From Brachionus manjavacas (taxonomy: Eukaryota > Rotifera > Eurotatoria > Ploima > Brachionidae), in the NCBI GenBank assembly GCA_019054805.1, contig JAHQIY010000009.1:2170001-2234000 (forward strand): 64,000 nt of DNA. Direction: 5' to 3'. Numbering within the stretch: position 1 is the first letter of the stretch; each line of letters starts with the position of its first letter. The notes beneath the pieces were generated by a model, which worked only from the letters and a program-made list of their open reading frames with translations, was not told the DNA's origin and searched no databases. This document shows, piece by piece, positions 7,206-64,000 of the stretch. The position numbers were made by a program, and so were the translations under genes.

Positions 7206-7244
7206 GTAATTTGATGAACTTAACTTAACTTTTTCTTTTTTCTT

Positions 7245-20017: not shown

Positions 20018-23000
20018 TTATGATTTCTTTTTCATTAAAAAACTTACAATATCTATAGATAAAATGCTTAAAAAGCTGAGAATGATCACAACCACTGCAA
20101 TTATCATGCTTGTTCGAATAACAGTCTTTATTGTTTGCAATACAGGCTCAGTTTCTTCACAGTGATCTCCTTTGTAATACTTGAAACATTTGCACTTGGG
20201 CTCTTTGTTTTTGTCTTCTTGACAGAATCCATTGCCAGAACAAGTGACATTCTGACACAGATCTATTGCATTTTCACAATGAGATCCATAATAATAGGTA
20301 CTGCACTCACATCTGAATCCTAATTTGTCATTTTTGATAAAAACACAAGTTCCATTATTAAGGCATTGAATTTTTTGATCACATGGATTTATCGTTTTTT
20401 CACATGATGAACCATAGTATTGATCTTTACAAATACATTTGTATTTATTGCCTGTAAAGGAACAAAAGCCTTTATTACTACAGTTGACCAAGCAGCCAGA
20501 TATATCATAGTTAGCTGTATTCAATATTTCAGCTAAAAATATAGGATCGCTATCATAAAAGGCATTTTTGACTTGTTCAATGGTGGAATTTTCAGTTGTA
20601 TTAATTATTGATGAATCAAAACCCAAAACTGAATAGTTTGTTGTTTTAGAAATGCTGTTAAATGATTCAGAAACCGTGGGGCTATAATTTGAAGTTGAAC
20701 TAGAAAAGGTAGACTGAAGAGTGCTAGTTGAGACAAATTCTGATGTCTCAAAAGTTGAAAATTCACTGCTTTCATCTAAAAAAATTAAAAAATTAAAAAA
20801 ATTATATTCAAATTTATTATTAGTGATCTTAATAAATCTTTACAAGTAAAAATATAGATAAATGTTTCTACATTTGTTACCGAAAAATCAATCCAACTCC
20901 CACAGTAACAAATACGCTTTCTTTTAAACAAATGAAAAATAATTTTTTCATATTTAAGAATTTTAATCAAGTTTTTGTAATTACTGTTGATCAAAAGCAA
21001 AATATTTGTATTTTTTGAATAGGCAAAAGTTGAAGCAAGTTGCATTTGCTTCAAATGCTTCCGTGATCACTCTATGAAAATTTGACGATCTAAATGAAAT
21101 TTCTGAATACTTTCCATTTTGATTAGGAACACCAGTCTTGTTAAATCCTTTATTTAGAAGAAAATCAAATTTTGAATTTTAAATTTTTTTTTCAAATTAG
21201 TTTTTGAATTTAATAATTACCGATAATTTTATAAACACCATAAAAAGTGTTCTGTCCTGAATAATGTCTATCAAATACTTTGTAGTTAGAACAGTTGTTC
21301 TCACCAACTCTCAGAGTCATGTTGATACTTTGGAGACAGAAACAATACTTTCCAGATGCTACCATTGTTAAATTTAAATACGAACAGTATTTAAAACAAG
21401 TGGTGATTGTGGTATTTTCCAGTATTAAATAGTCATCGGGTGTATTCAATGTGAAGCATCCAAGAAATTCAAAATAAAAATCTCCCGTTATTTCAGGACT
21501 TTTAACTTTTAAATTTAAGAGATAAAATCAAAGAATTTTATTTTTTGTTTTTAAATTTTACTATTAAAATTTGATACACTTCTCAAATAATATGGGGAAC
21601 CTCCACACTCAAAATGCTCATCAAAAAGACATGTTCTATCACAAAGTGCTCGGCTATAGTCCAGACCACGCACGCTGTAATTTTTTTCAGAGCAAAAATA
21701 CTCACTTAAAAAATATTTCCAATTTTTTTAATTAAATATTTTTATTTACAAATACTTGTTTTGTATAATCGTAATTGGCTTTTCTTGACTTACACAATGT
21801 TCTATTGGATTTGAGTAATTAGAATTTTTAAATGTATATTTGATTAAATCTGCAACTTCTATTGTGGTACACTCAATTTTTGTTTTGAAACCCACTGAAT
21901 CTTTTCAAAAATAGATTTGGTGATAAAATTATTCATAAAATTGAAACCACTAAAACTCATTATTCTTAATCTTCAATTTTTAAGTATATTAAAATTCAAT
22001 ATTTAAAAACTAATGATCAGACTTGCGCAAAAGTCAGAAAAAAATTAATTTAAAGTCTTTTCAGAATCAAGTCACTGACTTTTTAAAAAGCTTTTAAAAA
22101 AAAAAAAATTTCAAGTCGTCTTTTGGCTATATGACTTTTAAAAATCTTTGCTAATGATTAATCTTTTCTGATTTCATTATCACCTCATTTATTTGGTAAT
22201 GATACTTAAATGTTTAAACAGATATTCTGAAAAGTATCTTTTTAGAGCATTGCTTAAGCGCTTGCTCTAGTCTGCTTTAATTTCTCGAGACAAAATACTG
22301 AACAACACACTCTAGGTGTGTATTCAGGGAATAAAGTTCATTCCAGTTTTGGGTCTAGTCCATTAGGTGAACAAGTGTTCACGAAATAGGTGAATAATTC
22401 ATGTTCACGGTATAAGTGAACCAGAGTTGGTCAAAAGTCAAACTTTAAAGTCAGAATCGTTAAAAGTCAAAGTCAAAGTCTGACTTTGACTTGAATCTAA
22501 AATAATTTTATTAACAATAAAATTCAAGATTAACACCAAATAACTTGGAAAAATTAACAATGATAAAATATAATTTGAAAACATTAAAATTCGAGTACTA
22601 AACTTTATTTAAAATAAACATTTTTAAATGTAAATTTTAATTTTAACTTGATTTGAAAAAAATAAAATTTAAAGTCAAAGTCCAGACTTGACTTCAAAAA
22701 ATTAAAATTTAAAGTCAAAGTCCAGACTTGACTTCAAAAAATTAAAATTTAAAGTCAAAGTCCAGACTTGACTTTGACTTCATGACTTTGACTTTTGACC
22801 AACTCTGAAGTGAACAGATTTTTCACCTAATTATTTTTACCCTGATAGGTGAACATAAAAATTCTAAAAATTTTAATTAAAAAATTTAGGTGAACATTTG
22901 AAAAAAAGTATAATTTTTCTGATCACTTATTAAATTAACTGGTCACATATTTTGTTACTTTTTCAATATTTTTCCTTGGTCAATTATTATAGTTGTCTAA

Positions 23001-26000
23001 TGTTACTTTTTGATTTTAGCTGTTAACATTAATAACTTTAATATCCTAGAAATTAAATTTCCCAAAACACGGATCTTTGGACTCAAAGTGATCTCGTCTT
23101 GCCATCAGAAAATCTTAAGTTTATTTTTTTCTCTGAATGAGATTTTGATCTTTAGAGATAATTTACGAAAAAAAGTAAATTCCGATGATCAAATCATCAC
23201 TGTTAAACATTTTAAAAAATTATCTAAAAAATTGAGGATAATTGATCTTGAGGTTTATCTAATCAAAATAATTTACTAGGATCACTATCATAGACTGTAA
23301 AAGGCCTTAATTCTCCACCCCCACACGGTGATTGCCGATCTCCTAAACAATTAAAATTGCATTTTTCATCAGGTGCTTGATTGTACGTTCCATAAATTGT
23401 TGAACACGGACACGCATACCTAAAATTAGCGAAAAAAAATTATTTTATTTTTTATTTTTATTTTTTACTCATAAGTAGTGCCAGAATACGTATATCCAAA
23501 AAGTTTACAAATTTTGTTACATTCTTTATTAGTCATATTTTTGTAATTACGGTAAATTACTTGACCAAACTCAAATGGCTCTCGGTCGAAATAACAACCA
23601 AACACTTCATCTAAGAAAAATTTAAATTTTTTTTCTTTTGATTTTAGCATCTTACTTAATTTTTTATAAATATATATAGGATGCACTTAAAATATATTTT
23701 TTTTAAATTAATCAGATTAAAAAAGATTATAAACCTTCTATTGTTGTTTGAACAGTCATTTGTATAATAGCCAAATAAGCAATTACATTAAAATTTCCAT
23801 TCCTCAAATATTGTTTTTCTACCTCCAAATATGTTGTCTGATTTAAGCTATAAGTTTGAATTGTTTGGTCCCCAAAATTTATGTTTAAATCAATATTTTC
23901 AGTTATTGGAGGCCTAGCCAAAACACTTATTCCACAAGTTACAGATTCATATTGATTGACAGAGCTTGGACAATCAATTGTCATATTGAGCACTTAAAAA
24001 TTTTAAATAAAAAATAACTTTTTTAAATGAAAAAATACTTAATATTCTGTAAACTGATTTTGCAATCAATCCACCGCAATTTTTCGAATTATCACCACTG
24101 CACTTTTCTGAACAAAGGCTTTCATCGTGTTGATTATTAGCCACTACATCATTTGAACAATGACACTCGGATCTAGAATAGGTTTTTTTTTAAACTATAA
24201 AAGTAAAGGAACATACTTGTTAAAAGTAGAGGCAAATTCAAATTGCTTTAGATGACAGTATTTTATACAAAGATGGTTAGTCATAGAATTTAAGACCAAA
24301 GATTGGTCATCATTTTTTGTCACATTCGGTAAACATCCCACATAAGGTACGTAAAGAAATTCGGAGAAATTTTTTGACCTAATGAATTTAATCTTTTATT
24401 TAAATTTAATAATGCTTTAATTTAATGTTAACCTTCGTAGATTTGAAAGTAGTTAGCACATGCACAAAATTGATTAGGTGAGTTCTGGCATGAACACAGA
24501 CAATTATATTTGGTTTCATTTAATTTGATTCCAGTGAAATTGTTAAAGCATTTACAATCACTTAATTTATTTTTTTATTTTTTAAAAAATTTATAGAATT
24601 GATATTTACTCATATCCTGCTGAAGAGTATTTATAATTTCTTTTCGAACAAAATGAATTACACAATTGTTTTTCAATTTGTGAAGATTGATAAACGATTT
24701 GAGCAAAACCAAAGCATCCAACGTATTTTGTATTTTCTTTAAAAATATGATTAATATTCTAAATATAAGATTTTAAATTGAGAAGAACAACTGATTAATT
24801 CGATTTTTAAAAATTTACAGTAATATTAAAAATAAATCAATTGCAAAAGAGATTTTTTAATTTTTTCTTTAATTAAAGAATAAAATGGCATTATGAAGTT
24901 AATGATGCTCTGTGTGAATGGATTGATGTATGGAGAATGGGTCTCTGTGCTCAAAAATGTAAGATTATGCATTTTGGAAGGCTAATGCTAGATTTTCGTA
25001 TGAAACATCGGGAAAAGAGGGATTGGATAAAAATCAACTGTGTACCATTGAGTGTGAAAAGGATCTAGGCGTTATGGTGTCTTCAGACCTTAAATGGACA
25101 TGTCAAGTAAAGAACGCGTGCGCGAAAGCAAATAAAGCACTCGGAATTCTTAAAAGAAAATTTTTAAGTAGAGAAGAAACTCTTTGGTTGAAACTTTATA
25201 TGTCTTTGGTTAGACCTCACCTCGACTATGCAGTTCAAGTTTTGAATCCGAGCAAAAAAGGTGACGTAAAAGCATTAGAAAAAGTACAAGAGCGTGCAAC
25301 GAAAATTACTTGGTCACTAAGAGAAATTTCATACGAGGAAAGGCTTGCCAGATTGGGTTTAACAAAACTTAGTGAGAGAAGGGTGAGAGGTGATTTGATT
25401 GAGGTTTTTAAAGTGATTAACGGTCATGAAAAAGTGTCGTTTACCAGAGAACTTCTGGATCCTGTTGGTAGGAATGGATCGACACCGAGGTTAAGAGGAA
25501 ACAGCGCAAAAGTTCAAAGAGATAGTTTTCCGGCACAAAAAAGAAATGATTTTTCTGCCGCAGTGAGTGCTAGGCACGTTTTTCTCAAACAGAGAAGCTC
25601 CGCACTGGAATAGACTTCCTGAGGAGGTGGTTAAAGCTAAGACAGTTAATGGCTTCAAAGTAGCATTAGATAGGTTTAACAGAATTGGCTGCTAAAGCTT
25701 CTTACGCCTTTAAGCGGTGATGAGCTCAGATTTCCTACTTGTTAGGATTTCGCAGCAAGAACTACTACTACTACTACTAATGATCAATTCTAAATTGTAA
25801 GATAACTTATTAAAATTAAAAATAATAGTTGCAGAGGTATATTTTTGGATTCAACATACTTGTCAAATTTAAAAATAAACTCTGCAAAAGTTTGCAAAAT
25901 ATAACTCATTATAACTCACCAGTTAAAGCTGTATCATTTAGATGGTGTACACTCTACAATATTACAGAGCCTACCTTTTTATTTAAATCATATTATGTTA

Positions 26001-29000
26001 TCTAAATCATAGTATGTTATATCTAAAAATGTATCTCTCCATTAATTCTATTTAGAAATAAAATTTTATTTTATAATTAAAACTTGATTTGATCATTTAG
26101 AGCACTAAAAATAGATTTTAAACTTCAAAATGGCAAATAAAGCAACATTTCAAGTAATTGTTAATTTGCAAATACAAAAAAAAATTTTTTTAAAAAAGAA
26201 TTTTTTGAGCTTAAAATTTAAACCAAAGATAATGAGCAAATATCAAATAAGAACAAACTGAGAAAAATAAAACCCTTTTCAAAAATTGTCACCCGGTTTT
26301 CACATGGGAAAGTAAAAATAATATTTTATTCAGTAAAAATGATTATCCCCTAAGTAAATTTTATTCAGAAAATTACTTTCAGCAGAATTATTTTTTCATC
26401 AGCAAAAATGTATATTCGTCAGCAAAATTATTCTTTCAGCATATTAATTAATAAAATTGGTTAAAATAAAACAGTGAAATAATTGAAACCTATTCGTAAA
26501 TTAATAATTAAACCGAGATAAAATCCGATTCCGCTAAGTTACAGTTTTCGGCGAACGAGAAAATCTTCATCAATGGGCATCAGCTCTTCAGTGCTAAGTG
26601 GAAAGCAAAGAAATGTGCCGCTATCAAACATTAATTTTACTGTCAGTTAACTCAAATTCAATAAATTTACTGAAAAAATAAATATTTTTGCTATTTCTTT
26701 TTAATTAATTTATTGAAATGGATCTATTGATTTAACAAGACTATATTGACTGAACATTTGTGTATTTTTTTGAAACTATTATTTATAATTATTATTTTTT
26801 ATTATTTTTTATTATTTTACTAAATAAATTTTACTGAAGATTAAAATACTTTTGCTTAGAAAATTCAATAAATTTACCGAATTAATAAATATTTTTGCTA
26901 TTTTTTTAAATTAATTTACTGAAGTATATTTACTGATTAAATCTTACTATTTAAAATCCAAATGTGTGAAAAAAGTAAAATGTTCATACATATACTTACG
27001 ATAACTAACTTTGAAAAAAAGTAAAATGTTCATACATATACTTACGATAACTAACTTTGAAAAAAAGTAAAATGTTCATACATATACTTACGATAACTAA
27101 CTTTGAAAAAAGTAAAATGTTCATACATTTACTTACGATAACTAACTTTAATATTTAATTATATACTGCTTTAAAAATTGTCTTATCCAAGATTTACTTT
27201 AACATAATTATATGCTGCTTTAAAAATTGTCTTATTCTGGATTATCTTTAACATAATCTTAATATTTAAAACCTAAATGTCTGAAAAAAAGTAAAATTTT
27301 CATGCATATACTTTCGATAACTAACTTTAATATTTGAATATAGTGCTTTTAAAATTGTCTTGATGGTATCCGTTCATTTCGACAAGAATATTTCGACAAA
27401 TTATATTTCGACAAATTATATTTCGACAATATAATATTTAGACAAATAATCTTGTTTTTCGACAAGTATTATTTCGACAAATAGTATTTTGACATAAGAA
27501 ATCTCACTTGAATTTTATTGTACTTTTTTTCAAACATGGATAATTTAATTAATCATTTCGCCTAGATTCAAAATAACTATGTTAAGTTGTCAACAGGCAT
27601 TATAGATAAACGTACACCAGTTTAGGTTCGTTTCGAAGAGCAATTAAGTCAGCTAGTCGATAGTTATAATCAAGAGAATTTAATTGATTATTTAAAAAGT
27701 ATATCTTTATTGATTGATTTTTAATTTAGTTTTTTTATTTATCGAAAATTTAGTCGAAACTTTTTTTTTTTGTGTCTAAATTTTTTTATGTCTAAATGCT
27801 AATTGTCTAAAATTTATTTGTCGAAATAAACTTTGTCTAAAAATTTATTGGTCTAATTGTACTTGTCGAAAATTACCTGTCGAAATATAATTAGTCGAAA
27901 TATTCTTGTCGAAATGATACATATTCTGTCTTGATCCATTTTTTAGATTACATAATATATATTAATTTTTTTGCAATCTAAAATTAGATTTTAACTAAAA
28001 AATTAAGAAAAGAAAAAAACATTCAAATTCATTGAAATTCATTCAAGTTTATCTTACAAGAAATGTTGTTTGTACAGTATGCCACAAAAAGTTAGAATCA
28101 AGTTGAAAAAAATAAAAATATTGTTTTTTTTCAATTAAAATAATAGTTAACTATGAATTTTTTTCAAATAATAGTTTTTTTAAAGTAAGACTACCTAAAA
28201 ATCTAACAAAATAGAGAAAAAATGGGTAATAATAAAATAACTGATCAACAGAGATGGCAAATTGCATTTTTTTGATAAATCAGACAAAGACTGAAAGAGA
28301 AATAGCCGAGTTAATGAAATAATGAACAAAAAAATAATCAGAATAAAAAAAGTTTGACTCTAACTTTTTACGACATACTGTACAGAAATATTCATTTATT
28401 CATTTAATCAACACTTATGAAAAAAATTTTTAGAATCAATTTTTAATAAGAATTTTTGAATATGATAAATAAAATAAATCAATCAATTAAATAATCAATA
28501 CTAATTTATTTTTCATTTAATTTAATTATTCTGGCAGCGGAGCAAAAGGTAAAACCTTGTATACATTTTTTTACTGACCATATAATATTTTGTCTTTCAC
28601 ATTAAATAACTGCTCCATTTACAATATACTTTTTTGCTATTTACCAATTTTTAATTAAATAAGTCGATTTCGTTATAAAACGATAAAAAATTTACGAACC
28701 TATTAATTCACTGTAATCTTCTTGAATTTCCGTGATTTTATTGACAGCTTAAAAAAAAATATTTTTTTCTTTTCAGAAATAGCAAAACGCTACCGTTTAT
28801 TTCTCCATATAGAAAGAAAATGCCATTTGATTCTTGTATTTTAATTTTGTATAATCTTGGCTCCGCATAAATCTTATCATATATTTCATTTTCATTCACA
28901 AGTGTTAGATTCCTTCGATCATTATCATCAAAATCAATTACCAAATTGAATGTCATATTTGATGGTTTATTAAATGAAAATTGGAAAATTTCATTAGTTT

Positions 29001-32000
29001 CCACTTGAGTTGGAAAATAGGCATAAATGCTTTTAGCTACAAAAGAAATAAAATTTTAATTATCAATAATTAAATAATAAATAAAAAAAAATACTTGTGA
29101 TATTGTAGACTCTAGCAGCCATGAAGCTTCCGCAAATTTGGCTCGAATTTCCTGGACACTTAACATTACACATACTTTCATCTGTCCTTTGCAAATTGTG
29201 AATTGAATCAAGACAAGCACAAAAATCTCTTCAATAAATAAATAATTTAATTTGAAATTAATACATTTTTTTATTTTTCAAAAAAAATTTAATTTTTTAA
29301 ATTCAATTATTTATTCACCTATTATATGTAGCGAAAAATTGCCAGTATCTACAATTTTTAAAGCACATTCCATTCGTATTAAATGTTATTGGAAAGCCAT
29401 GGCTAATCTCACCGACATAACATCCCATATAGTTTCCAACACTAAAATAGTCGTTCATTTTACCTAATTTTTCAATTTTTTAGAGCTTTTTATTTACAAA
29501 ATCTGAACTACTTTTTAAATGGTAAGCGTTGTAAGAATTTTGACAGCCGCAAAATTCTTCGGTTGTTCCTTTGCATATACAATCACAGTTTGATGGATTC
29601 ATAGTTTCATTCACTCCGATATTGCTCGAACAGTAGCAATTCGAGCTTTATTAAAAATAAATTATTTTATATATTAAATGAATAAAATATTAAGATAACT
29701 TTTTCAAAATTGCATAACTAAAGCCTTTGTGGATGCATTGATCAAAACATAAATTAGGAGTCATTTGATTAGATTGATAGAATTCAATTTCAGGATTTTG
29801 ATTTTCAAAATAAAAACCATCATAAAAACAACCTAAATATAGACCTTTATCGCTCAATATCAATTGTTCTTTTAATAAATAATGATTTTTTTAATAACTA
29901 AAAATCAAAACTACCTGACTCAATTGGAACAGTGGATGAAGTGTTTTGATAAGCTAAGAAAAACTCAAAAAAAGTTCAATTAAATTTGAAAATTTTACCA
30001 TAAATTATAGTTTGGACATTCATCTGGTTATTAATTACATGAACTTTTAGAATATACTTTCCAGCACTAGTATAATTAAATGAAACGTTATAAAAATTTT
30101 GAACGTTATCAAAATATAAATAATTTCCATTTCCAAAATCAATTTCAAAATCCAATGATTCACTTATAAAGATTGAACAATAATACTGTTTATTGATAAA
30201 AACTGCTCTAGGACATGTGATTCCAATTTCATAGTCTTTTTTTGAAGAAAAAATTAAAAAGAAAATCAAATTTTCTCCAGTACTTTTTAATTCAAAAAAA
30301 TAATATTCGCAAAATTGTGAATTATATGAGGGCCAAGTGTCCCAGCAACTACATCTATGTCTTTAAAAAAAAATGGTTATTAAGTTTTATTTTTTATTCA
30401 TAAATTACTGCATATCAAGTGCTGAATACATCTTATTAAAATTCTTATGACACTCTCTAATACACGATATTTCTGTTTGATTTTCAATTGAAGAAAAATT
30501 TTCTTGGAATGAAAAACAGCCAATTTGGACTCCAACATTCTCAATGCAGCGAACACGCTCTAAATAATTAATTTTAATTTTTACCCATAATTAAAAATTT
30601 GACACTACTAAATTTAATAAACTTGTTGATTAAGAAAATAAAATATACAAAAAGCATTTTTTGTTTCTACCAAAGCAGGTCAAAAATCTAACAGGAATTT
30701 CATTTCAATTTTTTTGCAGAGATTTAACATATGATTATCAGACTTTAGCTAATTGTACTGTGTTTTACAACTAATTTTTGAAATCTTGATAAAAAGAGTT
30801 ATTTTATTTTTTCGGCGTTTTATGTTTTCAGAATTGTTTAATTTTATTAGCAGTAGAATTTTTCGATTTATTTATTTTTTATACAGAGTTGGTTAAAAGT
30901 CGGTGTCAAGTATAAATTTTAACTTTAAATTTTAATTTAGTTTTTCGGTGATTAAAATTAAAATAAATTTTTTTTTCAAATTGAAAATCTGACTTTAATC
31001 TCGATCTTGAGTCATTGTATTTCTTAGCCACGTTTTGAATCCTTTTAAAAAAGAAAAGCTTAAAAATATTAGGAAACAAGTTTTTTAAGCTATTAGCTTT
31101 GATCAGTTCTCTGGGTTTAAAAATAAAACTGTTGTCTTTAATAATATTTAACTCTAGAGTTTTTAATTACTTTGCCAAAATTGGAATTTCTTAATTAAAT
31201 TTACAAAATATTAAGATTATAAATTAAGATTATTAAGATTATTATAAATATTTAGATTTGTTTTAAAATTTAAAAATTTTAAATTTTGTTATTTTTAAGG
31301 GCAACAAAGATAACTCGATTTCAAAATGTGTATTGTTTTTGACTTAAATTTTAAAAGATTAAATATTTTTTGACTAGATGATCTTGAAGTTTGATAGTTA
31401 TTGAAAGCAGTGGTAGGTAGCACTTTTTTAACATTTGTGTTGAACTATTCTTCATAAATTTTCATATCTGTAATTACTCTTGAAGAGGAAAGGATTCTGT
31501 AAATAATGACCTATTATGAATGATTCAAAGATAAATTTAGCTTTATTTCTGTCCAAATTTTTTTATTCATATTTTAATTTGGCTAAGTTTTTCGTTAGGA
31601 AAAAAATATTTTTTTTAGTGCATAATTTTATTAAAAGGAGATAAAAAAATAAGTAGATAAATTATTTTTGTAGGAGATAAATGTCAACTAAAATTGATAA
31701 TTATTTTCAGAGGTAGATAATTAATTTGTGAAGTATATATTTATCATTTAAGGTTACTATTGGATCAAATTTAGAAAGCGAATAGTCAAGTATTCGCACG
31801 AAGATACACAGTTCTACATGTGTACAATTTCCCAATCAACGTTCGATATTACGAAAGCTCAGTGCAAAGAGTTTTGGACAAAATAAGACGGTTGGCAAGA
31901 TTTTACGAGTTGGTGGAATGGAGAAGTAAATTCATTGCAGTTAAAATAGATTCTGAAAATCGGGAATCTAGCGCTTGTTCATGTCATTATTGGCAAAAAA

Positions 32001-34648: not shown

Positions 34649-34684
34649 TTTAGAAAGTTTTTAAAATATTAGAATTATTTAGAC

Positions 34685-34693
34685 CTTTTTATA
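34685..34693 (-). promoter_or_regulatory. TATA box of the receptor gene, copy 1
   Basis: TATAAAAAG on the minus strand within CCTATAAAAAGG, 37-45 bases upstream of the ATG at 34,648. Initiation about 30 bases downstream would give a very short 5' UTR. The element is unchanged in copy 2. Confidence 0.6.
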
Positions 34694-35289
34694 GGTTGAT
34701 AATGAAACAAAGTGGCAAAAAACTGAAAGAGCTAGTAAAAAATAAACACATAGGAAGTCATATTTCCCAGAATGCTAAAAATTAAACTGTTTAAAAGCCT
34801 TTTATTTGATTTTAAAAAGGATATTAAAATGCGAGACAATTAATTTTTTCATATTATCCATTTCTTTTAAAACTTAATTTTTAGATCTTATTATGAAACG
34901 AAAAAAACATTTAGAAACAATTTTTGGTACCTTAGGATTTAACAACAAAAACATTTTTTATCTAATCTTTATTTGAAATTTGAGTAGCCATCTAGGGTTT
35001 TATTGATGACAATAAGTTTTTTTTATTGAGTTAAAATTTCAATTTCAATACGACGTTTTTTCATAAAAGTGAGTTAATAATGGTTAAATTTTGGTAAACT
35101 GAAAAAACTTTCTTAAATAAAAAAAGCATTAAATGGTTTATAAGAGTACTAGGAGTATTTAAATTAAAATTAAATTGTGCTGACAATTTATAATGTCAAT
35201 ATTTAATCCAAAACTCTTGTTATTTGAATAAAAGCATAAAATGTGGACGTCAATGTTTAATAGATGATTTTACACCGGAGCTCTGGAAC

Positions 35290-35760
35290 CCCAAGATTCA
35301 CCGGGATACTTCCATGTGGCGAGTCTGTTCTTGAACTGGTTTACAGCCGATTACTGTCTCAGGCAGGCTGTTAAACTCTCTGATGACACGATTCGTGAAA
35401 AAGTTTTCTCGCTTGGCGCAGTTGGTAGGTGCTTGGACGTCTTTTGGGCCCTCCAATACCCTGGGCTGATCCGAGTTGGGAAAGAGAGCTATAGTTTGGG
35501 GAGATCTGACCCAATCTATGCTATTTAGTCCGTTTCTGATCCTGATTATTTGGATCATTAATCTCCTTTGGTCCTGCGTTCGCTCAGAGTGTACAATCCC
35601 AAGATGTAGAGAGTATCGCTATAACTAAAGATTCTCGGAAAGAATTTGGTTGCTTAAGAATGTTGCTGTCCTTGGCATAGTAGAGGGACCAAAATACAGC
35701 TGCATACTTCAAGTGGGGTCTGGCATAAGTTTGGCCCAAAACGCTTACGGACAAAAAAAC
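35290..35760 (-). mobile_element. LINE reverse-transcriptase C-terminal relic between gene copies 1 and 2
   Basis: The minus-strand reading shows YARPHLKYAAVFWSLYYAKD (the RPHLEYA block), then ERTQDQRRLMIQIIRI and RENFFTNRVIREFNSLPETV (the FF..RVI..WN.LP end block). The frame changes between blocks. GC content is well above its surroundings. A dead fragment, different in sequence from the (ACT)n LINE. Confidence 0.8.
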
Positions 35761-36310: not shown

Positions 36311-36345
36311 ATAAAAGATGTTAAAAAATGAAAAATTTAGAGTAT

Positions 36346-51049: not shown

Positions 51050-51085
51050 TTTAGAAAGTTTTTAAAATATTAGAATTATTTAGAC

Positions 51086-51094
51086 CTTTTTATA
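51086..51094 (-). promoter_or_regulatory. TATA box of the receptor gene, copy 2
   Basis: TATAAAAAG on the minus strand, 37-45 bases upstream of the ATG at 51,049, identical to copy 1 with identical flanks. Confidence 0.6.
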
Positions 51095-51689
51095 GGTTGA
51101 TAATGAAACAAAGTGGCAAAAAACTGAAAGAGCTAGTAAAAAATAAACACATAGGAAGTCATATTTCCCAGAATGCTAAAAATTAAACTGTTTAAAAGCC
51201 TTTTATTTGATTTTAAAAAGGATATTAAAATGCGAGACAATTAATTTTTTCATATTATCCATTTCTTTTAAAACTTAATTTTTAGATCTTATTATGAAAC
51301 GAAAAAAACATTTAGAAACAATTTTTGGTACCTTAGGATTTAACAACAAAAACATTTTTTATCTAATCTTTATTTGAAATTTGAGTAGCCATCTAGGGTT
51401 TTATTGATGACAATAAGTTTTTTTTATTGAGTTAAAATTTCAATTTCAATACGACGTTTTTTCATAAAAGTGAGTTAATAATGGTTAAATTTTGGTAAAC
51501 TGAAAAAACTTTCTTAAATAAAAAAAGCATTAAATGGTTTATAAGAGTACTAGGAGTATTTAAATTAAAATTAAATTGTGCTGACAATTTATAATGTCAA
51601 TATTTAATCCAAAACTCTTGTTATTTGAATAAAAGCATAAAATGTGGACGTCAATGTTTAATAGATGATTTTACACCGGAGCTCTGGAA

Positions 51690-52150
51690 CCCCAAGATTC
51701 ACCGGGATACTTCCATGTGGCGAGTCTGTTCTTGAACTGGTTTACAGCCGATTACTGTCTCAGGCAGGCTGTTAAACTCTCTGATGACACGATTCGTGAA
51801 AAAGTTTTCTCGCTTGGCGCAGTTGGTAGGTGCTTGGACGTCTTTTGGGCCCTCCAATACCCTGGGCTGATCCGAGTTGGGAAAGAGAGCTATAGTTTGG
51901 GGGAGATCTGACCCAATCTATGCTATTTAGTCCGTTTCTGATCCTGATTATTTGGATCATTAATCTCCTTTGGTCCTGCGTTCGCTCAGAGTGTACAATC
52001 CCAAGATGTAGAGAGTATCGCTATAACTAAAGATTCTCGGAAAGAATTTGGTTGCTTAAGAATGTTGCTGTCCTTGGCATAGTAGAGGGACCAAAATACA
52101 GCTGCATACTTCAAGTGGGGTCTGGCATAAGTTTGGCCCAAAACGCTTAC
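51690..52150 (-). mobile_element. LINE C-terminal relic between gene copies 2 and 3
   Basis: Duplicate of 35,290-35,760 with an extra G near 51,900. Confidence 0.8.
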
Positions 52151-52459
52151 GGACAAAAAAACTGAATTTTAGAGAAAAAAGTGAAAAATTAATAACAAAT
52201 TTAATTTTATTAAACAATTTTTGAAAAAAACATTTTATTACTTTTTTTACATCATACAAACCCATATAATTCAATAAGATGGGTAAATAAAATATATAGT
52301 CAAAAAGGAAGTGTTGGTCAACAATTATAGTCATAAGTTCACTTGAACAAAATAAAATTTTGAAGCAAAAGTCATACTTAGACTCTGACTTTTATGAATG
52401 GAACTTACTTACGAATCTCATTCAATCTTTCAAATTTAATTGTCTTAAATTTTTAAAAA

Positions 52460-52710
52460 CATGAGCTCATACACCAAACCTCTATCAATTCACTAACGCC
52501 ATCAAAATCTTTCTGAAACTTCGTTCTTTCATAAACCTGATTAACAACGCCTGGAATTTTTGAGTCATCAGCATAAATTTTCATCTTAATCGAAAAAAAT
52601 ATGGAATATCATTTATTTACAGAATGAAAAGTATTGAATCAAGACTCTTATGGTACTACTTCGAGAACCTCTGACCACTCAGATAAAGTTTCATCAAGAA
52701 AAACAAGTAA
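52460..52710 (-). mobile_element. LINE palm relic (YADD block), second copy
   Basis: Duplicate of 36,060-36,310. Confidence 0.7.
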
Positions 52711-52815
52711 ATAAAAGATGTTAAAAAATGAAAAATTTAGAGTATTTTATTAAAAAATTATTCTTAATTAATTAGAATTTATATAAAAGGAATAATTTTA
52801 TATTTTTTTGAATGG

Positions 52816-55800
52816 TTATTTTTTTTTAACATCATTCGAACTTTCGATTTTTTTCATAAAAATATTCAAAATATCAATGAATAAAATGCTTAAAAAGCTG
52901 AGAATGATCACAACCACTGCAATTATCATGCTTGTTCGAATAACAGTCTTGATGGTTTGCAATACAGGCTCAGTTTCTTCACAGTGATCTCCTTTGTAAT
53001 ACTTGAAACATTTGCACTTGGGCTCTTTGTTTTTGTCTTCTTGACAGAATCCATTGCCAGAACAAGTGACATTCTGACACAGATCTATTGCATTTTCACA
53101 ATGAGATCCATAATAATAGGTATTGCACTCACATCTGAATCCTAATTTGTCATTTTTGATAAAAACACAAGTTCCATTATTAAGGCATTGAATTTTTTGA
53201 TCACATGGATTTATCGTTTTTTCACATGATGAACCATAGTATTCATCTTTACAAATACATTTGTATTTATTGCCTGTAAAGGAACAAAAGCCTTTATTAC
53301 TACAGTTGACCAAGCAGCCAGATATATCATAGTTAGCTGTATTCAATATTTCAGCTAAAAATATAGGATCGCTATCATAAAAGGCATTTTTGACTTGTTC
53401 AATGGTGGAATTTTCAGTTGTATTAATTATTGTTGAATCAAAACCCAAAACTGAATAGTTTGTTGTTTTAGAAATGCTGTTAAATGATTCAGAAACCGTG
53501 GGGCTATAATTTGAAGTTGAACTAGAAAAGGTAGACTGAAGAGTGCTAGTTGAGACAAATTCTGATGTCTCAAAAGTTGAAAATTCACTGCTTTCATCTA
53601 AAAAAATTAAAAAATTAAAAAAATTATATTCAAATTTATTATTAGTGATCTTAATAAATCTTTACAAGTAAAAATATAGATAAATGTTTCTACATTTGTT
53701 ACCGAAAAATCAATCCAACTCCCACAGTAACAAATACGCTTTCTTTTAAACAAATGAAAAATAATTTTTTCATATTTAAGAATTTTAATCAAGTTTTTGT
53801 AATTACTGTTGATCAAAAGCAAAATATTTGTATTTTTTGAATAGGCAAAAAGTTGAAGCAAGTTGCATTTGCTTCAAATGCTTCCGTGATCACTCTATGA
53901 AAATTTGACGATCTAAATGAAATTTCTGAATACTTTCCATTTTGATTAGGAACACCAGTCTTGTTAAATCCTTTATTTAGAAGAAAATCAAATTTTGAAT
54001 TTTAAATTTTTTTTTTCAAATTAGTTTTTGAATTTAATAATTACCGATAATTTTATAAACACCATAAAAAGTGTTCTGTCCTGAATAATGTCTATCAAAT
54101 ACTTTGTAGTTAGAACAGTTGTTCTCACCAACTCTCAGAGTCATGTTGATACTTTGGAGACAGAAACAATACTTTCCAGATGCTACCATTGTTAAATTTA
54201 AATACGAACAGTATTTAAAACAAGTGGTGATTGTGGTATTTTCCAGTATTAAATAGTCATCGGGTGTATTCAATGTGAAGCATCCAAGAAATTCAAAATA
54301 AAAATCTCCCGTTATTTCAGGACTTTTAACTTTTAAATTTAAGAGATAAAATCAAAGAATTTTATTTTTTGTTTTTAAATTTTACTATTAAAATTTGATA
54401 CACTTCTCAAATAATATGGGGAACCTCCACACTCAAAATGCTCATCAAAAAGACATGTTCTATCACAAAGTGCTCGGCTATAGTCCAGACCACGCACGCT
54501 GTAATTTTTTTCAGAGCAAAAATACTCACTTAAAAAATATTTCCAATTTTTTTAATTAAATATTTTTATTTACAAATACTTGTTTTGTATAATCGTAATT
54601 GGCTTTTCTTGACTTACACAATGTTCTATTGGATTTGAGTAATTAGAATTTTTAAATGTATATTTGATTAAATCTGCAACTTCTATTGTGGTACACTCAA
54701 TTTTTGTTTTGAAACCCACTGAATCTTTTCAAAAATAGATTTGGTGATAAAATTATTCATAAAATTGAAACCACTAAAACTCATTATTCTTAATCTTCAA
54801 TTTTTAAGTATATTAAAATTCAATATTTAAAAACTAATGATCAGACTTGCGCAAAAGTCAGAAAAAAATTAATTTAAAGTCTTTTCAGAATCAAGTCACT
54901 GACTTTTTAAAAAGCTTTTAAAAAAAAAAATTTCAAGTCGTCTTTTGGCTATATGACTTTTAAAAATCTTTGCTAATGATTAATCTTTTCTGATTTCATT
55001 ATCACCTCATTTATTTGGTAATGATACTTAAATGTTTAAACAGATATTCTGAAAAGTATCTTTTTAGAGCATTGCTTAAGCGCTTGCTCTAGTCTGCTTT
55101 AATTTCTCGAGACAAAATACTGAACAACACACTCTAGGTGTGTATTCAGGGAATAAAGTTCATTCCAGTTTTGGGTCTAGTCCATTAGGTGAACAAGTGT
55201 TCACGAAATAGGTGAATAATTCATGTTCACGGTATAAGTGAACCAGAGTTGGTCAAAAGTCAAACTTTAAAGTCAGAATCGTTAAAAGTCAAAGTCAAAG
55301 TCTGACTTTGACTTGAATCTAAAATAATTTTATTAACAATAAAATTCAAGATTAACACCAAATAACTTGGAAAAATTAACAATGATAAAATATAATTTGA
55401 AAACATTAAAATTCGAGTACTAAACTTTATTTAAAATAAACATTTTTAAATGTAAATTTTAATTTTAACTTGATTTGAAAAAAATAAAATTTAAAGTCAA
55501 AGTCCAGACTTGACTTCAAAAATTAAAATTTAAAGTCAAAGTCCAGACTTGACTTCAAAAAATTAAAATTTAAAGTCAAAGTCCAGACTTGACTTTGACT
55601 TCATGACTTTGACTTTTGACCAACTCTGAAGTGAACAGATTTTTCACCTAATTATTTTTACCCTGATAGGTGAACATAAAAATTCTAAAAATTTTAATTA
55701 AAAAATTTAGGTGAACATTTGAAAAAAAGTATAATTTTTCTGATCACTTATTAAATTAACTGGTCACATATTTTGTTACTTTTTCAATATTTTTCCTTGG

Positions 55801-58800
55801 TCAATTATTATAGTTGTCTAATGTTACTTTTTGATTTTAGCTGTTAACATTAATAACTTTAATATCCTAGAAATTAAATTTCCCAAAACACGGATCTTTG
55901 GACTCAAAGTGATCTCGTCTTGCCATCAGAAAATCTTAAGTTTATTTTTTTCTCTGAATGAGATTTTGATCTTTAGAGATAATTTACGAAAAAAAGTAAA
56001 TTCCGATGATCAAATCATCACTGTTAAACATTTTAAAAAATTATCTAAAAAATTGAGGATAATTGATCTTGAGGTTTATCTAATCAAAATAATTTACTAG
56101 GATCACTATCATAGACTGTAAAAGGCCTTAATTCTCCACCCCCACACGGTGATTGCCGATCTCCTAAACAATTAAAATTGCATTTTTCATCAGGTGCTTG
56201 ATTGTACGTTCCATAAATTGTTGAACACGGACACGCATACCTAAAATTAGCGAAAAAAAATTATTTTATTTTTTATTTTTATTTTTTACTCATAAGTAGT
56301 GCCAGAATACGTATATCCAAAAAGTTTACAAATTTTGTTACATTCTTTATTAGTCATATTTTTGTAATTACGGTAAATTACTTGACCAAACTCAAATGGC
56401 TCTCGGTCGAAATAACAACCAAACACTTCATCTAAGAAAAATTTAAATTTTTTTCTTTTGATTTTAGCATCTTACTTAATTTTTTATAAATATATATAGG
56501 ATGCACTTAAAATATATTTTTTTAAATTAATCAGATTAAAAAGATTATAAACCTTCTATTGTTGTTTGAACAGTCATTTGTATAATAGCCAAATAAGCAA
56601 TTACATTAAAATTTCCATTCCTCAAATATTGTTTTTCTACCTCCAAATATGTTGTCTGATTTAAGCTATAAGTTTGAATTGTTTGGTCCCCAAAATTTAT
56701 GTTTAAATCAATATTTTCAGTTATTGGAGGCCTAGCCAAAACACTTATTCCACAAGTTACAGATTCATATTGATTGACAGAGCTTGGACAATCAATTGTC
56801 ATATTGAGCACTTAAAAATTTTAAATAAAAAATAACTTTTTTAAATGAAAAAATACTTAATATTCTGTAAACTGATTTTGCAATCAATCCACCGCAATTT
56901 TTCGAATTATCACCACTGCACTTTTCTGAACAAAGGCTTTCATCGTGTTGATTATTAGCCACTACATCATTTGAACAATGACACTCGGATCTAGAATAGG
57001 TTTTTTTTTAAACTATAAAAGTAAAGGAACATACTTGTTAAAAGTAGAGGCAAATTCAAATTGCTTTAGATGACAGTATTTTATACAAAGATGGTTAGTC
57101 ATAGAATTTAAGACCAAAGATTGGTCATCATTTTTTGTCACATTCGGTAAACATCCCACATAAGGTACGTAAAGAAATTCGGAGAAATTTTTTTGACCTA
57201 ATGAATTTAATCTTTTATTTAAATTTAATAATGCTTTAATTTAATGTTAACCTTCGTAGATTTGAAAGTAGTTAGCACATGCACAAAATTGATTAGGTGA
57301 GTTCTGGCATGAACACAGACAATTATATTTGGTTTCATTTAATTTGATTCCAGTGAAATTGTTAAAGCATTTACAATCACTTAATTTATTTTTTTATTTT
57401 TTAAAAAATTTATAGAATTGATATTTACTCATATCCTGCTGAAGAGTATTTATAATTTCTTTTCGAACAAAATGAATTACACAATTGTTTTTCAATTTGT
57501 GAAGATTGATAAACGATTTGAGCAAAACCAAAGCATCCAACGTATTTTGTATTTTCTTTAAAAATATGATTAATATTCTAAATATAAGATTTTAAATTGA
57601 GAAGAACAACTGATTAATTCGATTTTTAAAAATTTACAGTAATATTAAAAATAAATCAATTGCAAAAGAGATTTTTTAATTTTTTTTCTTTAATTAAAGA
57701 ATAAAATGGCATTATGAAGTTAATGATGCTCTGTGTGAATGGATTGATGTATGGAGAATGGGTCTCTGTGCTCAAAAATGTAAGATTATGCATTTTGGAA
57801 GGCTAATGCTAGATTTTCGTATGAAACATCGGGAAAAGAGGGATTGGATAAAAATCAACTGTGTACCATTGAGTGTGAAAAGGATCTAGGCGTTATGGTG
57901 TCTTCAGACCTTAAATGGACATGTCAAGTAAAGAACGCGTGCGCGAAAGCAAATAAAGCACTCGGAATTCTTAAAAGAAAATTTTTAAGTAGAGAAGAAA
58001 CTCTTTGGTTGAAACTTTATATGTCTTTGGTTAGACCTCACCTCGACTATGCAGTTCAAGTTTTGAATCCGAGCAAAAAAGGTGACGTAAAAGCATTAGA
58101 AAAAGTACAAGAGCGTGCAACGAAAATTACTTGGTCACTAAGAGAAATTTCATACGAGGAAAGGCTTGCCAGATTGGGTTTAACAAAACTTAGTGAGAGA
58201 AGGGTGAGAGGTGATTTGATTGAGGTTTTTAAAGTGATTAACGGTCATGAAAAAGTGTCGTTTACCAGAGAACTTCTGGATCCTGTTGGTAGGAATGGAT
58301 CGACACCGAGGTTAAGAGGAAACAGCGCAAAAGTTCAAAGAGATAGTTTTCCGGCACAAAAAAGAAATGATTTTTCTGCCGCAGTGAGTGCTAGGCACGT
58401 TTTTTTTCTCAAACAGAGAAGCTCCGCACTGGAATAGACTTCCTGAGGAGGTGGTTAAAGCTAAGACAGTTAATGGCTTCAAAGTAGCATTAGATAGGTT
58501 TAACAGAATTGGCTGCTAAAGCTTCTTACGCCTTTAAGCGGTGATGAGCTCAGATTTCCTACTTGTTAGGATTTCGCAGCAAGAACTACTACTACTACTA
58601 CTAATGATCAATTCTAAATTGTAAGATAACTTATTAAAATTAAAAATAATAGTTGCAGAGGTATATTTTTGGATTCAACATACTTGTCAAATTTAAAAAT
58701 AAACTCTGCAAAAGTTTGCAAAATATAACTCATTATAACTCACCAGTTAAAGCTGTATCATTTAGATGGTGTACACTCTACAATATTACAGAGCCTACCT

Positions 58801-61800
58801 TTTTATTTAAATCATATTATGTTATCTAAATCATAGTATGTTATATCTAAAAATGTATCTCTCCATTAATTCTATTTAGAAATAAAATTTTATTTTATAA
58901 TTAAAACTTGATTTGATCATTTAGAGCACTAAAAATAGATTTTAAACTTCAAAATGGCAAATAAAGCAACATTTCAAGTAATTGTTAATTTGCAAATACA
59001 AAAAAAAATTTTTTTAAAAAAAGAATTTTTTGAGCTTAAAATTTAAACCAAAGATAATGAGCAAATATCAAATAAGAACAAACTGAGAAAAATAAAACCC
59101 TTTTCAAAAATTGTCACCCGGTTTTCACATGGGAAAGTAAAAATAATATTTTATTCAGTAAAAATGATTATCCCCTAAGTAAATTTTATTCAGAAAATTA
59201 CTTTCAGCAGAATTATTTTTTCATCAGCAAAAATGTATATTCGTCAGCAAAATTATTCTTTCAGCATATTAATTAATAAAATTGGTTAAAATAAAACAGT
59301 GAAATAATTGAAACCTATTCGTAAATTAATAATTAAACCGAGATAAAATCCGATTCCGCTAAGTTACAGTTTTCGGCGAACGAGAAAATCTTCATCAATG
59401 GGCATCAGCTCTTCAGTGCTAAGTGGAAAGCAAAGAAATGTGCCGCTATCAAACATTAATTTTACTGTCAGTTAACTCAAATTCAATAAATTTACTGAAA
59501 AAATAAATATTTTTGCTATTTCTTTTTAATTAATTTATTGAAATGGATCTATTGATTTAACAAGACTATATTGACTGAACATTTGTGTATTTTTTTGAAA
59601 CTATTATTTATAATTATTATTTTTTATTATTTTTTATTATTTTACTAAATAAATTTTACTGAAGATTAAAATACTTTTGCTTAGAAAATTCAATAAATTT
59701 ACCGAATTAATAAATATTTTTGCTATTTTTTTAAATTAATTTACTGAAGTATATTTACTGATTAAATCTTACTATTTAAAATCCAAATGTGTGAAAAAAG
59801 TAAAATGTTCATACATATACTTACGATAACTAACTTTGAAAAAAAGTAAAATGTTCATACATATACTTACGATAACTAACTTTGAAAAAAGTAAAATGTT
59901 CATACATATACTTACGATAACTAACTTTGAAAAAAGTAAAATGTTCATACATTTACTTACGATAACTAACTTTAATATTTAATTATATACTGCTTTAAAA
60001 ATTGTCTTATCCAAGATTTACTTTAACATAATTATATGCTGCTTTAAAAATTGTCTTATTCTGGATTATCTTTAACATAATCTTAATATTTAAAACCTAA
60101 ATGTCTGAAAAAAAGTAAAATTTTCATGCATATACTTTCGATAACTAACTTTAATATTTGAATATAGTGCTTTTAAAATTGTCTTGATGGTATCCGTTCA
60201 TTTCGACAAGAATATTTCGACAAATTATATTTCGACAAATTATATTTCGACAATATAATATTTAGACAAATAATCTTGTTTTTCGACAAGTATTATTTCG
60301 ACAAATAGTATTTTGACATAAGAAATCTCACTTGAATTTTATTGTACTTTTTTTCAAACATGGATAATTTAATTAATCATTTCGCCTAGATTCAAAATAA
60401 CTATGTTAAGTTGTCAACAGGCATTATAGATAAACGTACACCAGTTTAGGTTCGTTTCGAAGAGCAATTAAGTCAGCTAGTCGATAGTTATAATCAAGAG
60501 AATTTAATTGATTATTTAAAAAGTATATCTTTATTGATTGATTTTTAATTTAGTTTTTTTATTTATCGAAAATTTAGTCGAAACTTTTTTTTGTGTCTAA
60601 ATTTTTTTATGTCTAAATGCTAATTGTCTAAAATTTATTTGTCGAAATAAACTTTGTCTAAAAATTTATTGGTCTAATTGTACTTGTCGAAAATTACCTG
60701 TCGAAATATAATTAGTCGAAATATTCTTGTCGAAATGATACATATTCTGTCTTGATCCATTTTTTAGATTACATAATATATATTAATTTTTTTGCAATCT
60801 AAAATTAGATTTTAACTAAAAAATTAAGAAAAGAAAAAAACATTCAAATTCATTGAAATTCATTCAAGTTTATCTTACAAGAAATGTTGTTTGTACAGTA
60901 TGCCACAAAAAGTTAGAATCAAGTTGAAAAAAATAAAAATATTGTTTTTTTTCAATTAAAATAATAGTTAACTATGAATTTTTTTCAAATAATAGTTTTT
61001 TTAAAGTAAGACTACCTAAAAATCTAACAAAATAGAGAAAAAATGGGTAATAATAAAATAACTGATCAACAGAGATGGCAAATTGCATTTTTTTTTGATA
61101 AATCAGACAAAGACTGAAAGAGAAATAGCCGAGTTAATGAAATAATGAACAAAAAAATAATCAGAATAAAAAAAAAGTTTGACTCTAACTTTTTACGACA
61201 TACTGTACAGAAATATTCATTTATTCATTTAATCAACACTTATGAAAAAAAATTTTTAGAATCAATTTTTAATAAGAATTTTTGAATATGATAAATAAAA
61301 TAAATCAATCAATTAAATAATCAATACTAATTTATTTTTCATTTAATTTAATTATTCTGGCAGCGGAGCAAAAGGTAAAACCTTGTATACATTTTTTTAC
61401 TGACCATATAATATTTTGTCTTTCACATTAAATAACTGCTCCATTTACAATATACTTTTTTGCTATTTACCAATTTTTAATTAAATAAGTCGATTTCGTT
61501 ATAAAACGATAAAAAATTTACGAACCTATTAATTCACTGTAATCTTCTTGAATTTCCGTGATTTTATTGACAGCTTAAAAAAAATATTTTTTCTTTTCAG
61601 AAATAGCAAAACGCTACCGTTTATTTCTCCATATAGAAAGAAAATGCCATTTGATTCTTGTATTTTAATTTTGTATAATCTTGGCTCCGCATAAATCTTA
61701 TCATATATTTCATTTTCATTCACAAGTGTTAGATTCCTTCGATCATTATCATCAAAATCAATTACCAAATTGAATGTCATATTTGATGGTTTATTAAATG

Positions 61801-64000
61801 AAAATTGGAAAATTTCATTAGTTTCCACTTGAGTTGGAAAATAGGCATAAATGCTTTTAGCTACAAAAGAAATAAAATTTTAATTATCAATAATTAAATA
61901 ATAAATAAAAAAATACTTGTGATATTGTAGACTCTAGCAGCCATGAAGCTTCCGCAAATTTGGCTCGAATTTCCTGGACACTTAACATTACACATACTTT
62001 CATCTGTCCTTTGCAAATTGTGAATTGAATCAAGACAAGCACAAAAATCTCTTCAATAAATAAATAATTTAATTTGAAATTAATACATTTTTTTATTTTT
62101 CAAAAAAATTTAATTTTTAAATTCAATTATTTATTCACCTATTATATGTAGCGAAAAATTGCCAGTATCTACAATTTTTAAAGCACATTCCATTCGTATT
62201 AAATGTTATTGGAAAGCCATGGCTAATCTCACCGACATAACATCCCATATAGTTTCCAACACTAAAATAGTCGTTCATTTTACCTAATTTTTCAATTTTT
62301 TAGAGCTTTTTATTTACAAAATCTGAACTACTTTTTAAATGGTAAGCGTTGTAAGAATTTTGACAGCCGCAAAATTCTTCGGTTGTTCCTTTGCATATAC
62401 AATCACAGTTTGATGGATTCATAGTTTCATTCACTCCGATATTGCTCGAACAGTAGCAATTCGAGCTTTATTAAAAATAAATTATTTTATATATTAAATG
62501 AATAAAATATTAAGATAACTTTTTCAAAATTGCATAACTAAAGCCTTTGTGGATGCATTGATCAAAACATAAATTAGGAGTCATTTGATTAGATTGATAG
62601 AATTCAATTTCAGGATTTTGATTTTCAAAATAAAAACCATCATAAAAACAACCTAAATATAGACCTTTATCGCTCAATATCAATTGTTCTTTTAATAAAT
62701 AATGATTTTTTTTTAATAACTAAAAATCAAAACTACCTGACTCAATTGGAACAGTGGATGAAGTGTTTTGATAAGCTAAGAAAAACTCAAAAAAAGTTCA
62801 ATTAAATTTGAAAATTTTACCATAAATTATAGTTTGGACATTCATCTGGTTATTAATTACATGAACTTTTAGAATATACTTTCCAGCACTAGTATAATTA
62901 AATGAAACGTTATAAAAATTTTGAACGTTATCAAAATATAAATAATTTCCATTTCCAAAATCAATTTCAAAATCCAATGATTCACTTATAAAGATTGAAC
63001 AATAATACTGTTTATTGATAAAAACTGCTCTAGGACATGTGATTCCAATTTCATAGTCTTTTTTTGAAGAAAAATTAAAAAGAAAATCAAATTTTCTCCA
63101 GTACTTTTTAATTCAAAAAAATAATATTCGCAAAATTGTGAATTATATGAGGGCCAAGTGTCCCAGCAACTACATCTATGTCTTTAAAAAAAAATGGTTA
63201 TTAAGTTTTATTTTTTATTCATAAATTACTGCATATCAAGTGCTGAATACATCTTATTAAAATTCTTATGACACTCTCTAATACACGATATTTCTGTTTG
63301 ATTTTCAATTGAAGAAAAATTTTCTTGGAATGAAAAACAGCCAATTTGGACTCCAACATTCTCAATGCAGCGAACACGCTCTAAATAATTAATTTTAATT
63401 TTTACCCATAATTAAAAATTTGACACTACTAAATTTAATAAACTTGTTGATTAAGAAAATAAAATATACAAAAAGCATTTTTTGTTTCTACCAAAGCAGG
63501 TCAAAAATCTAACAGGAATTTCATTTCAATTTTTTTGCAGAGATTTAACATATGATTATCAGACTTTAGCTAATTGTACTGTGTTTTACAACTAATTTTT
63601 TGAAATCTTGATAAAAAGAGTTATTTTATTTTTTCGGCGTTTTATGTTTTCAGAATTGTTTAATTTTATTAGCAGTAGAATTTTTCGATTTATTTATTTT
63701 TTATACAGAGTTGGTTAAAAGTCGGTGTCAAGTATAAATTTTAACTTTAAATTTTAATTTAGTTTTTCGGTGATTAAAATTAAAATAAATTTTTTTTTCA
63801 AATTGAAAATCTGACTTTAATCTCGATCTTGAGTCATTGTATTTCTTAGCCACGTTTTGAATCCTTTTAAAAAAGAAAAGCTTAAAAATATTAGGAAACA
63901 AGTTTTTTAAGCTATTAGCTTTGATCAGTTCTCTGGGTTTAAAAATAAAACTGTTGTCTTTAATAATATTTAACTCTAGAGTTTTTAATTACTTTGCCAA
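52816..64000 (-). CDS. Multi-WSC, PKD and EGF domain type I membrane protein, copy 3 (5' part beyond window)
   Basis: Exons 4 to 26 are present; exon 4 ends at 63,380 on its 5' side, and the signal peptide and first WSC exons lie outside. The last exon is 52816-53597, with the same C-terminal tail as copy 2. In this copy the exon 16 A run has seven bases (57,188-57,194) and exons 5, 16 and 22 all join in frame, which supports the intended reading of those exons. One run in exon 24 (53,847-53,851) has five bases where the others have four, shifting the frame inside the tenth WSC domain. From about 53,600 rightwards the sequence agrees with copy 1 rather than copy 2. Regulation cannot be judged because the promoter is out of view. 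Confidence 0.8.
55244..55628. mobile_element. hAT-type MITE, unit 3
   Basis: Same insertion with the AAGTGAAC duplication (55,236-55,243 and 55,629-55,636). Confidence 0.88.
57700..58603 (+). mobile_element. 5'-truncated LINE, unit 3
   Basis: Copy of the unit 1 insertion. The open part is 57,844-58,437, with the same (ACT)n end. Confidence 0.88.
58652..58800. repeat. Small interspersed repeat, unit 3
   Basis: Equivalent of 25,828-25,976. Confidence 0.5.
59793..59973. repeat. 46-bp minisatellite, unit 3
   Basis: Four units, as in the other copies. Confidence 0.95.
60199..60737. mobile_element. Foldback-type element with TTTCGACAA sub-repeats, unit 3
   Basis: Same element and ends as in units 1 and 2. 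Confidence 0.75.
60894..61207. mobile_element. Tc1/mariner-type MITE, unit 3
   Basis: Same insertion as in units 1 and 2. Two internal homopolymers are longer. Confidence 0.82.

Follow-up and report, generated by a model that had tools for sequence, protein, structure and literature searches.

Tandem near-identical genes for a predicted WSC, PKD-like and EGF membrane protein in the rotifer Brachionus manjavacas

WSC modules (Pfam accession PF01822) form the cysteine-rich domain (CRD) of fungal Wsc1-type sensors, and the Serendipita indica lectin SiWsc3, which carries three of them, binds linear beta-1,3-glucan, its single modules having no obvious pocket (PMC9024836, PMC9252488). Animal WSC proteins are few in the open-licence literature. 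Beside polycystin-1 and Kremen, whose Wnt antagonism is kept when the helix and tail are swapped for a glycosylphosphatidylinositol (GPI) anchor (PMC5014086), Nematostella joins WSC to trypsin, an example of new WSC partners in animals (PMC6767649), and mussel gill transcripts include a 'WSC domain-containing protein 2' (PMC4581086). Here we describe a 64,000-base stretch of the Brachionus manjavacas genome (assembly GCA_019054805.1, contig JAHQIY010000009.1, positions 2,170,001 to 2,234,000; hereafter the window) that holds a tandem array of near-identical genes for a protein with WSC, PKD-like and EGF modules.

We found nothing on WSC in Brachionus in the open-licence literature, and none of the literature matches listed there for WSC with PKD, EGF, rotifers, spiralians, lectins or expansion is a multi-WSC membrane protein with PKD-like spacers. 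A rotifer lectin survey, the available text of which does not mention WSC, took only secreted lectins without membrane helices (PMC8878817) and thus would have left out a protein of this kind. In the rotifer mmr-b genes, diverged terminal repeats around a uniform interior are a prediction of concerted evolution (PMC3495898), and the near-uniform array described here, with its diverged edge copy, matches that prediction.

A 26-exon gene repeated in tandem

The window has a GC content of 26% and contains no N. Self-BLAST and alignment revealed that 20011-47586 recurs at 36435-64000 with 99.54% identity, and that 20011-64000 consists of a 16.4-kb unit present head to tail in about 2.7 copies, with one minus-strand gene per unit. 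The array reaches the window end, where the third copy is truncated, so that there are at least three gene copies; 53 tblastn hits disclosed no gene copy elsewhere in the window, beyond the array. The original prediction had taken 20018-64000 for one gene and did not mention the array. That delimitation was wrong, as the interval holds three tandem copies, the third incomplete, and a single gene spanning 20-64 kb is ruled out by a separate start and stop in each. The units, delimited by self-BLAST and alignment, and the gene copies are listed below.

20011-36434, minus strand: repeat unit U1, 16,424 bp; its low-coordinate edge adjoins unique DNA
36435-52834, minus strand: repeat unit U2, 16,400 bp
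52835-64000, minus strand: repeat unit U3, at least 11,166 bp, truncated by the window end
20018-34648, minus strand: gene copy 1, 26 exons; assembled with one frameshift, in exon 15
36416-51049, minus strand: gene copy 2, identical 26-exon layout; four one-base exonic frameshifts (exons 22, 15 and, twice, 5); C-terminal tail differs
52816-63380, minus strand: gene copy 3, exons 4-26 in the window and exons 1-3 beyond it; two one-base exonic frameshifts (exons 24 and 5)

The 26 exons of copy 1 were placed by reading the minus strand and then joined by script. All 25 introns are GT-AG, GC content is 31% in exons as against 13% in introns shorter than 100 bases, and the coding frame is open over 1,414 codons (exon 15 excluded), whereas the other frames have 86 stops in 1,429 and 180 in 1,422. 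A TATAAA lies 45 bases 5' of the ATG, and about 55 bases past the stop codon there is a signal of the AATAAA/ATTAAA type. When exon 15 is taken from copy 3, the joined product has 1,492 residues and its frame no in-frame stop. Introns lie in phase 1 (16) or phase 2 (9) and never in phase 0, which fits a modular protein. A real 26-exon minus-strand gene at 20018-34648 is thereby confirmed. The earlier statement that 26 exons join in phase held for exon number but not for exon 15 of copy 1, which is one base short. Two genes divided at the long introns 3 or 12 are disfavoured, as phases and module order run on across both introns; a hydropathy scan of the joined protein found no second signal peptide and no second helix.

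The introns and spacer have repeats of their own. Intron 12 contains, at 26969-27149 and 27376-27920, a 46-bp tandem repeat in four copies and, facing each other, two short repeats built of TTTCGACAAATA-type units, all found in the three units, and intron 20 contains a 40-bp repeat of 3.2 copies (22646-22774), likewise present in the other two. Open reading frames at 24963-25613 (intron 12) and 35298-35618 (intergenic spacer), present in each unit, resemble by eye the tail of a long interspersed nuclear element (LINE) reverse transcriptase; neither has a Pfam match.

Modules of the predicted protein

The protein begins with a signal peptide, followed by three repeats of WSC-WSC-PKD-like and four further modules of WSC type; a Ser/Thr-rich stretch then leads to three EGF modules, a helix and a very short C-terminal tail. 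The analysis supports a type I membrane protein that combines WSC, PKD-like and EGF modules, and the threefold WSC-WSC-PKD ectodomain that had been proposed stands once PKD is reworded as PKD-like. Coordinates below are those of copy 1, all on the minus strand.

34573-34648, minus strand: exon 1, start codon and signal-peptide-like stretch (hydropathy), with the TATAAA 45 bases upstream
34147-34519, minus strand: WSC1, exons 2-3; 29.7 bits, above cut-off
30279-30559, minus strand: WSC2, exon 4 plus the start of exon 5; 16.7 bits, sub-threshold
30000-30278, minus strand: PKD-like 1, remainder of exon 5; 14.8 bits, sub-threshold; predicted beta-sandwich
29512-29832, minus strand: WSC3, exons 7-8; 51.4 bits
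29095-29463, minus strand: WSC4, exons 9-10; 43.1 bits
28794-29036, minus strand: PKD-like 2, exon 11; no Pfam match
24433-24736, minus strand: WSC5, exons 13-14; 23.0 bits, sub-threshold
24039-24378, minus strand: WSC6, exons 15-16; 54.7 bits on in-frame copy 3; a frameshift lies here in copies 1 and 2
23735-23992, minus strand: PKD-like 3, exon 17; no Pfam match
23277-23610, minus strand: WSC7, exons 19-20; 52.9 bits; matches the Kremen-1 WSC (E 4.2e-4)
21562-21900, minus strand: WSC8-like, exons 21-22; 13.6 bits, in the control range; placed by position and 1-2-1 intron phases
21221-21505, minus strand: WSC9-like, exon 23 alone; 20.3 bits; fold prediction uninformative
20844-21147, minus strand: WSC10-like, exons 24-25; 21.9 bits
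20018-20775, minus strand: exon 26, Ser/Thr-rich stretch, three EGF modules, membrane helix and short tail

The Cys-rich blocks do score as WSC, and the profile search thus gave no refutation of the assignment: the whole joined protein reaches 188.2 bits (E 2.7e-56; Pfam gathering score 27.8 bits) over nine stretches. Scanned singly, five of the ten modules (WSC1, 3, 4, 6 and 7; 29.7-54.7 bits) exceed the cut-off and the other five (13.6-23.0 bits) fall below it. As a control, the five weak modules were shuffled ten times, five with cysteines fixed and five with cysteines free; nine shuffles had no WSC match and one, with fixed cysteines, scored 14.6 bits. WSC8 is assigned by position and intron phases, its score giving no support. 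The ten WSC-like domains originally counted are retained as ten WSC-type modules, half of them sub-threshold when taken singly. Nine have phase-1 borders and a single internal phase-2 intron, the other being WSC9 with its one exon. Sequence matches in the PDB include a WSC-type chain (7pz2, E 3.3e-5) and Kremen-1 (5fww).

In a FastTree phylogeny of the ten modules, WSC1, 3 and 5, which have ten cysteines each, group together (0.835), as do WSC4 and 6 (0.887). Because first modules group with first and second with second, and because intron phases also fit, there is moderately strong support for the suggestion that the WSC-WSC-PKD block was duplicated.

The PKD profile (PF00801; gathering score 23.5 bits) gives 14.8 bits on module 1 and 15.8 bits on the whole protein, and the motifs IDFGNG, IDFDDN and INFGDQ are all present. 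An AlphaFold model of PKD-like 1, with modules 2 and 3 supplied as an alignment, is all beta, with a predicted local distance difference test (pLDDT) score of 80.8; fold prediction of WSC9 alone was uninformative (pLDDT 45.6). In a Foldseek search with the PKD-like 1 model, none of 608 matches had an E value of 0.001 or better; the top match was an archaeal PKD/YVTN protein (1l0q, E 4e-3), and the human polycystin-1 PKD (1b4r, E 0.15) stood at rank 23. A PDB profile search with the PKD-like alignment returned no PKD and one antibody chain (E 1.5). Of the three PKD-like domains first proposed, the motifs are in place and one has a profile match, below threshold. We term the modules PKD-like rather than PKD, given this one match and a predicted beta-sandwich.

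The remaining parts agree with what had been proposed. Exon 26 matches EGF profiles above their gathering scores (PF00008, 29.8 bits; PF07974, 36.2 bits; PF23106, 37.8 bits), each in three stretches, whereas the Teneurin EGF region PF25024 (cut-off 65 bits) is not reached (45.6 bits on exon 26, 40.5 bits on the whole protein). Hydropathy identifies a hydrophobic, signal-peptide-like start and a single C-terminal helix at about residues 1455-1481. The Ser/Thr-rich stretch is 64 residues long (48% S+T), and the protein has 100 cysteines and 36 N-glycosylation motifs. An NCBIfam scan of a 375-residue piece found no family.

Proposed function and competing explanations

Our leading interpretation, to which we assign slightly less than an even chance, is that these tandem near-identical genes encode a type I surface protein with a short tail and a multivalent WSC ectodomain that acts on a repetitive ligand, the array being kept uniform. 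The string of WSC modules would be spaced by PKD-like beta-sandwiches and lifted off the membrane by the Ser/Thr-rich stretch and three EGF modules, and many weak WSC sites would jointly bind a repetitive extracellular ligand, either a polysaccharide (e.g. beta-1,3-glucan) or a glycoprotein. Since the helix is followed by no more than about 6 residues in copy 1 and 17 in copies 2 and 3, the protein would capture, adhere or serve as a co-receptor rather than signal by itself, and signalling, if any, would pass via partners. Unequal crossing-over or gene conversion would keep the array uniform, and the array would raise dosage, not diversity. Fungal WSC proteins make glycan binding a reasonable inference, and cooperative binding of a repetitive ligand is favoured by the precedent of the three-WSC fungal lectin and by the tail-less action of Kremen.

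Several results weigh against this interpretation. All assembled copies are frameshifted, and so all could be pseudogenes. PKD-like modules 2 and 3 have no Pfam match, and CD4 immunoglobulin domains rank ahead of the polycystin-1 PKD among the Foldseek matches of the PKD-like 1 model. WSC8 scores no better than the shuffled control, WSC2 falls outside the WSC4/6 group and the node uniting both groups has a value of 0.106. A search of IMG/VR and GTDB contigs, which are viral and prokaryotic and make a weak test, yielded no homologue (2 and 3 pattern matches, none related). Finally, WSC modules can bind protein rather than sugar, as in Kremen.

Protein binding is the main rival. The WSC modules may, in the manner of a Kremen-like co-receptor, bind a protein, either secreted or in the membrane nearby, and set its level or partner choice, which we consider unlikely, though less so than the explanations that follow. 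Kremen is itself a type I membrane protein whose Kringle and WSC bind DKK1 (PMC5014086), and Kremen-1 is among the PDB matches of WSC7. Against this, the joined protein has no Kringle or CUB match in Pfam at E up to 1, the Xenopus Kremen WSC intron is in phase 0 (PMC3927609) whereas WSC-internal introns here are in phase 2, and the presence of WSC in ten copies points to avidity for a repetitive ligand.

A decaying pseudogene array, in which the copies no longer code for protein, is improbable, even though every assembled copy is frameshifted at one or more exonic homopolymers, a point on which the original prediction was silent. In exon 15, copies 1 and 2 have A6 and copy 3 has A7, and only A7 keeps the frame; copy 2 has three further one-base exonic indels (one in exon 22, two in exon 5) and copy 3 carries one each in exons 24 and 5. 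An alternative exon 14/15 splice that would rescue copy 1 was sought by eye, with no frame-restoring donor or acceptor found; copy 3 differs there by one A. Run-length variation in exons was seen in 0/80 runs of length 4, 1/38 of length 5, 1/7 of length 6 and 4/4 of length 7, and outside exons in 0/264, 1/121, 6/62 and 12/44 runs of these lengths, 10/17 of length 8 and 13/18 of length 9 or more. Variable runs of length 5 or more are about equally frequent in exons (6/49) and elsewhere (42/262), as decay would have it, and the same variation would also fit loss of constraint. The steep climb of indels with run length, from zero at length 4, nonetheless fits long-read consensus error, there are almost no accompanying substitutions beyond the first 1.1 kb and the joined frame has no in-frame stop. 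The homopolymer frameshifts are most likely consensus errors of the assembly.

We find it equally improbable that the array is an artefact, with one locus or two haplotypes repeated in the assembly. Most of the unit does vary in run lengths only: of 32 substitutions between units, 24 lie within the first 1.1 kb, and the other eight are scattered over about 15.3 kb, six of them beside long runs. Yet copying one locus would not yield private substitutions and a private tail. U1 has 15 private substitutions, none of them more than 600 bp from its border with unique DNA and 12 of them in the first 200 bp, and the nine private to U2 are confined to a 280-bp patch. Amino-acid changes number three in exon 26 (tail region excluded) and two in exon 24. 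The C-terminal end is SIDIVSFLMKKKS in copy 1 and FIDILNIFMKKIESSNDVKKK in copies 2 and 3.

A comparison of 20018-20060 with 36416-36480 shows KKKS at the end of the edge copy, whereas the inner copies have a longer tail that finishes in VKKK. The KKKS end resembles a di-lysine endoplasmic reticulum retrieval signal, and the edge copy might, given this end, be retained differently.

Least probable is a role like that of yeast Wsc1, as a mechanosensor or a strut of the cell coat, with modules anchored to an extracellular coat and pulling on the membrane: WSC, a Ser/Thr-rich stretch and one helix are the layout of fungal Wsc sensors (PMC9024836) and long PKD-like spacers would suit it, but the EGF modules separate the Ser/Thr-rich stretch from the membrane, and no signalling region is visible in the very short tail.

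A bolder extension of the multivalent-ectodomain interpretation, and an improbable one, is that the locus represents an animal receptor family not described before, whose multivalent glycan-recognition ectodomain arose by repetition of a shuffled WSC-WSC-PKD cassette and whose gene spread into a uniform tandem array under concerted evolution. If so, one specificity, directed for instance at food algae, parasitic fungi or mates, could be raised in dose or swapped in all copies together.

Outside the array, a gene for a PDE1-like cyclic nucleotide phosphodiesterase (16801-19485, plus strand) converges on it. Its exon at 19033-19482 has PDE1B as its closest PDB match (E 3.2e-52) and matches Pfam PDEase_I (E 8.6e-42), which points to animal DNA; its upstream exons were placed by reading. 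Further left, 7225-8105 and 10925-11107 (minus strand) appear by eye to be retrotransposon and TRASH/CXC-like coding remnants.

Comparison with known systems

If expressed and glycan-binding, the protein would be a new receptor type for a poorly studied animal group, and its array would show concerted evolution acting on an entire receptor gene of 26 exons. Rotifer mmr-b, likened here by description, offers a parallel in surface protein genes under concerted evolution with diverged terminal repeats, but its repeats are mainly intragenic and WSC is not reported in the available text (PMC3495898).

Among proteins with WSC modules, fungal Wsc1-type sensors share the WSC, the Ser/Thr-rich stretch and the single helix. 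They have one WSC where this protein has ten, and they signal to the cell-wall integrity pathway through a long cytoplasmic tail, in place of which this protein has about 6 to 17 residues; the PKD-like and EGF modules are additions here. SiWsc3 resembles the array protein in having tandem WSC as its likely binding unit, but is described as a secreted fungal lectin without PKD, EGF or helix (PMC9024836, PMC9252488). Kremen-1/2 are likewise animal type I membrane proteins with WSC, and WSC7 has a match to Kremen-1; they differ in their Kringle-WSC-CUB order with one WSC, in a tail of 60-75 residues (PMC5014086) and in the WSC intron phase (PMC3927609). Polycystin-1 combines WSC and PKD in one animal membrane protein, but with one WSC, LRR, a C-type lectin domain, many PKD, REJ, PLAT and a channel region (PMC5318412); in the joined protein, LRR, C-type lectin, REJ and PLAT have no Pfam match at E up to 1 and there is one helix only.

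The array gene thus lacks the defining parts of polycystin-1, of Kremen and of the fungal Wsc sensors. Its modules are well known, whereas their arrangement has no earlier description that we could find in the open-licence literature; the array and the history of the cassette are the more unusual parts of the finding.

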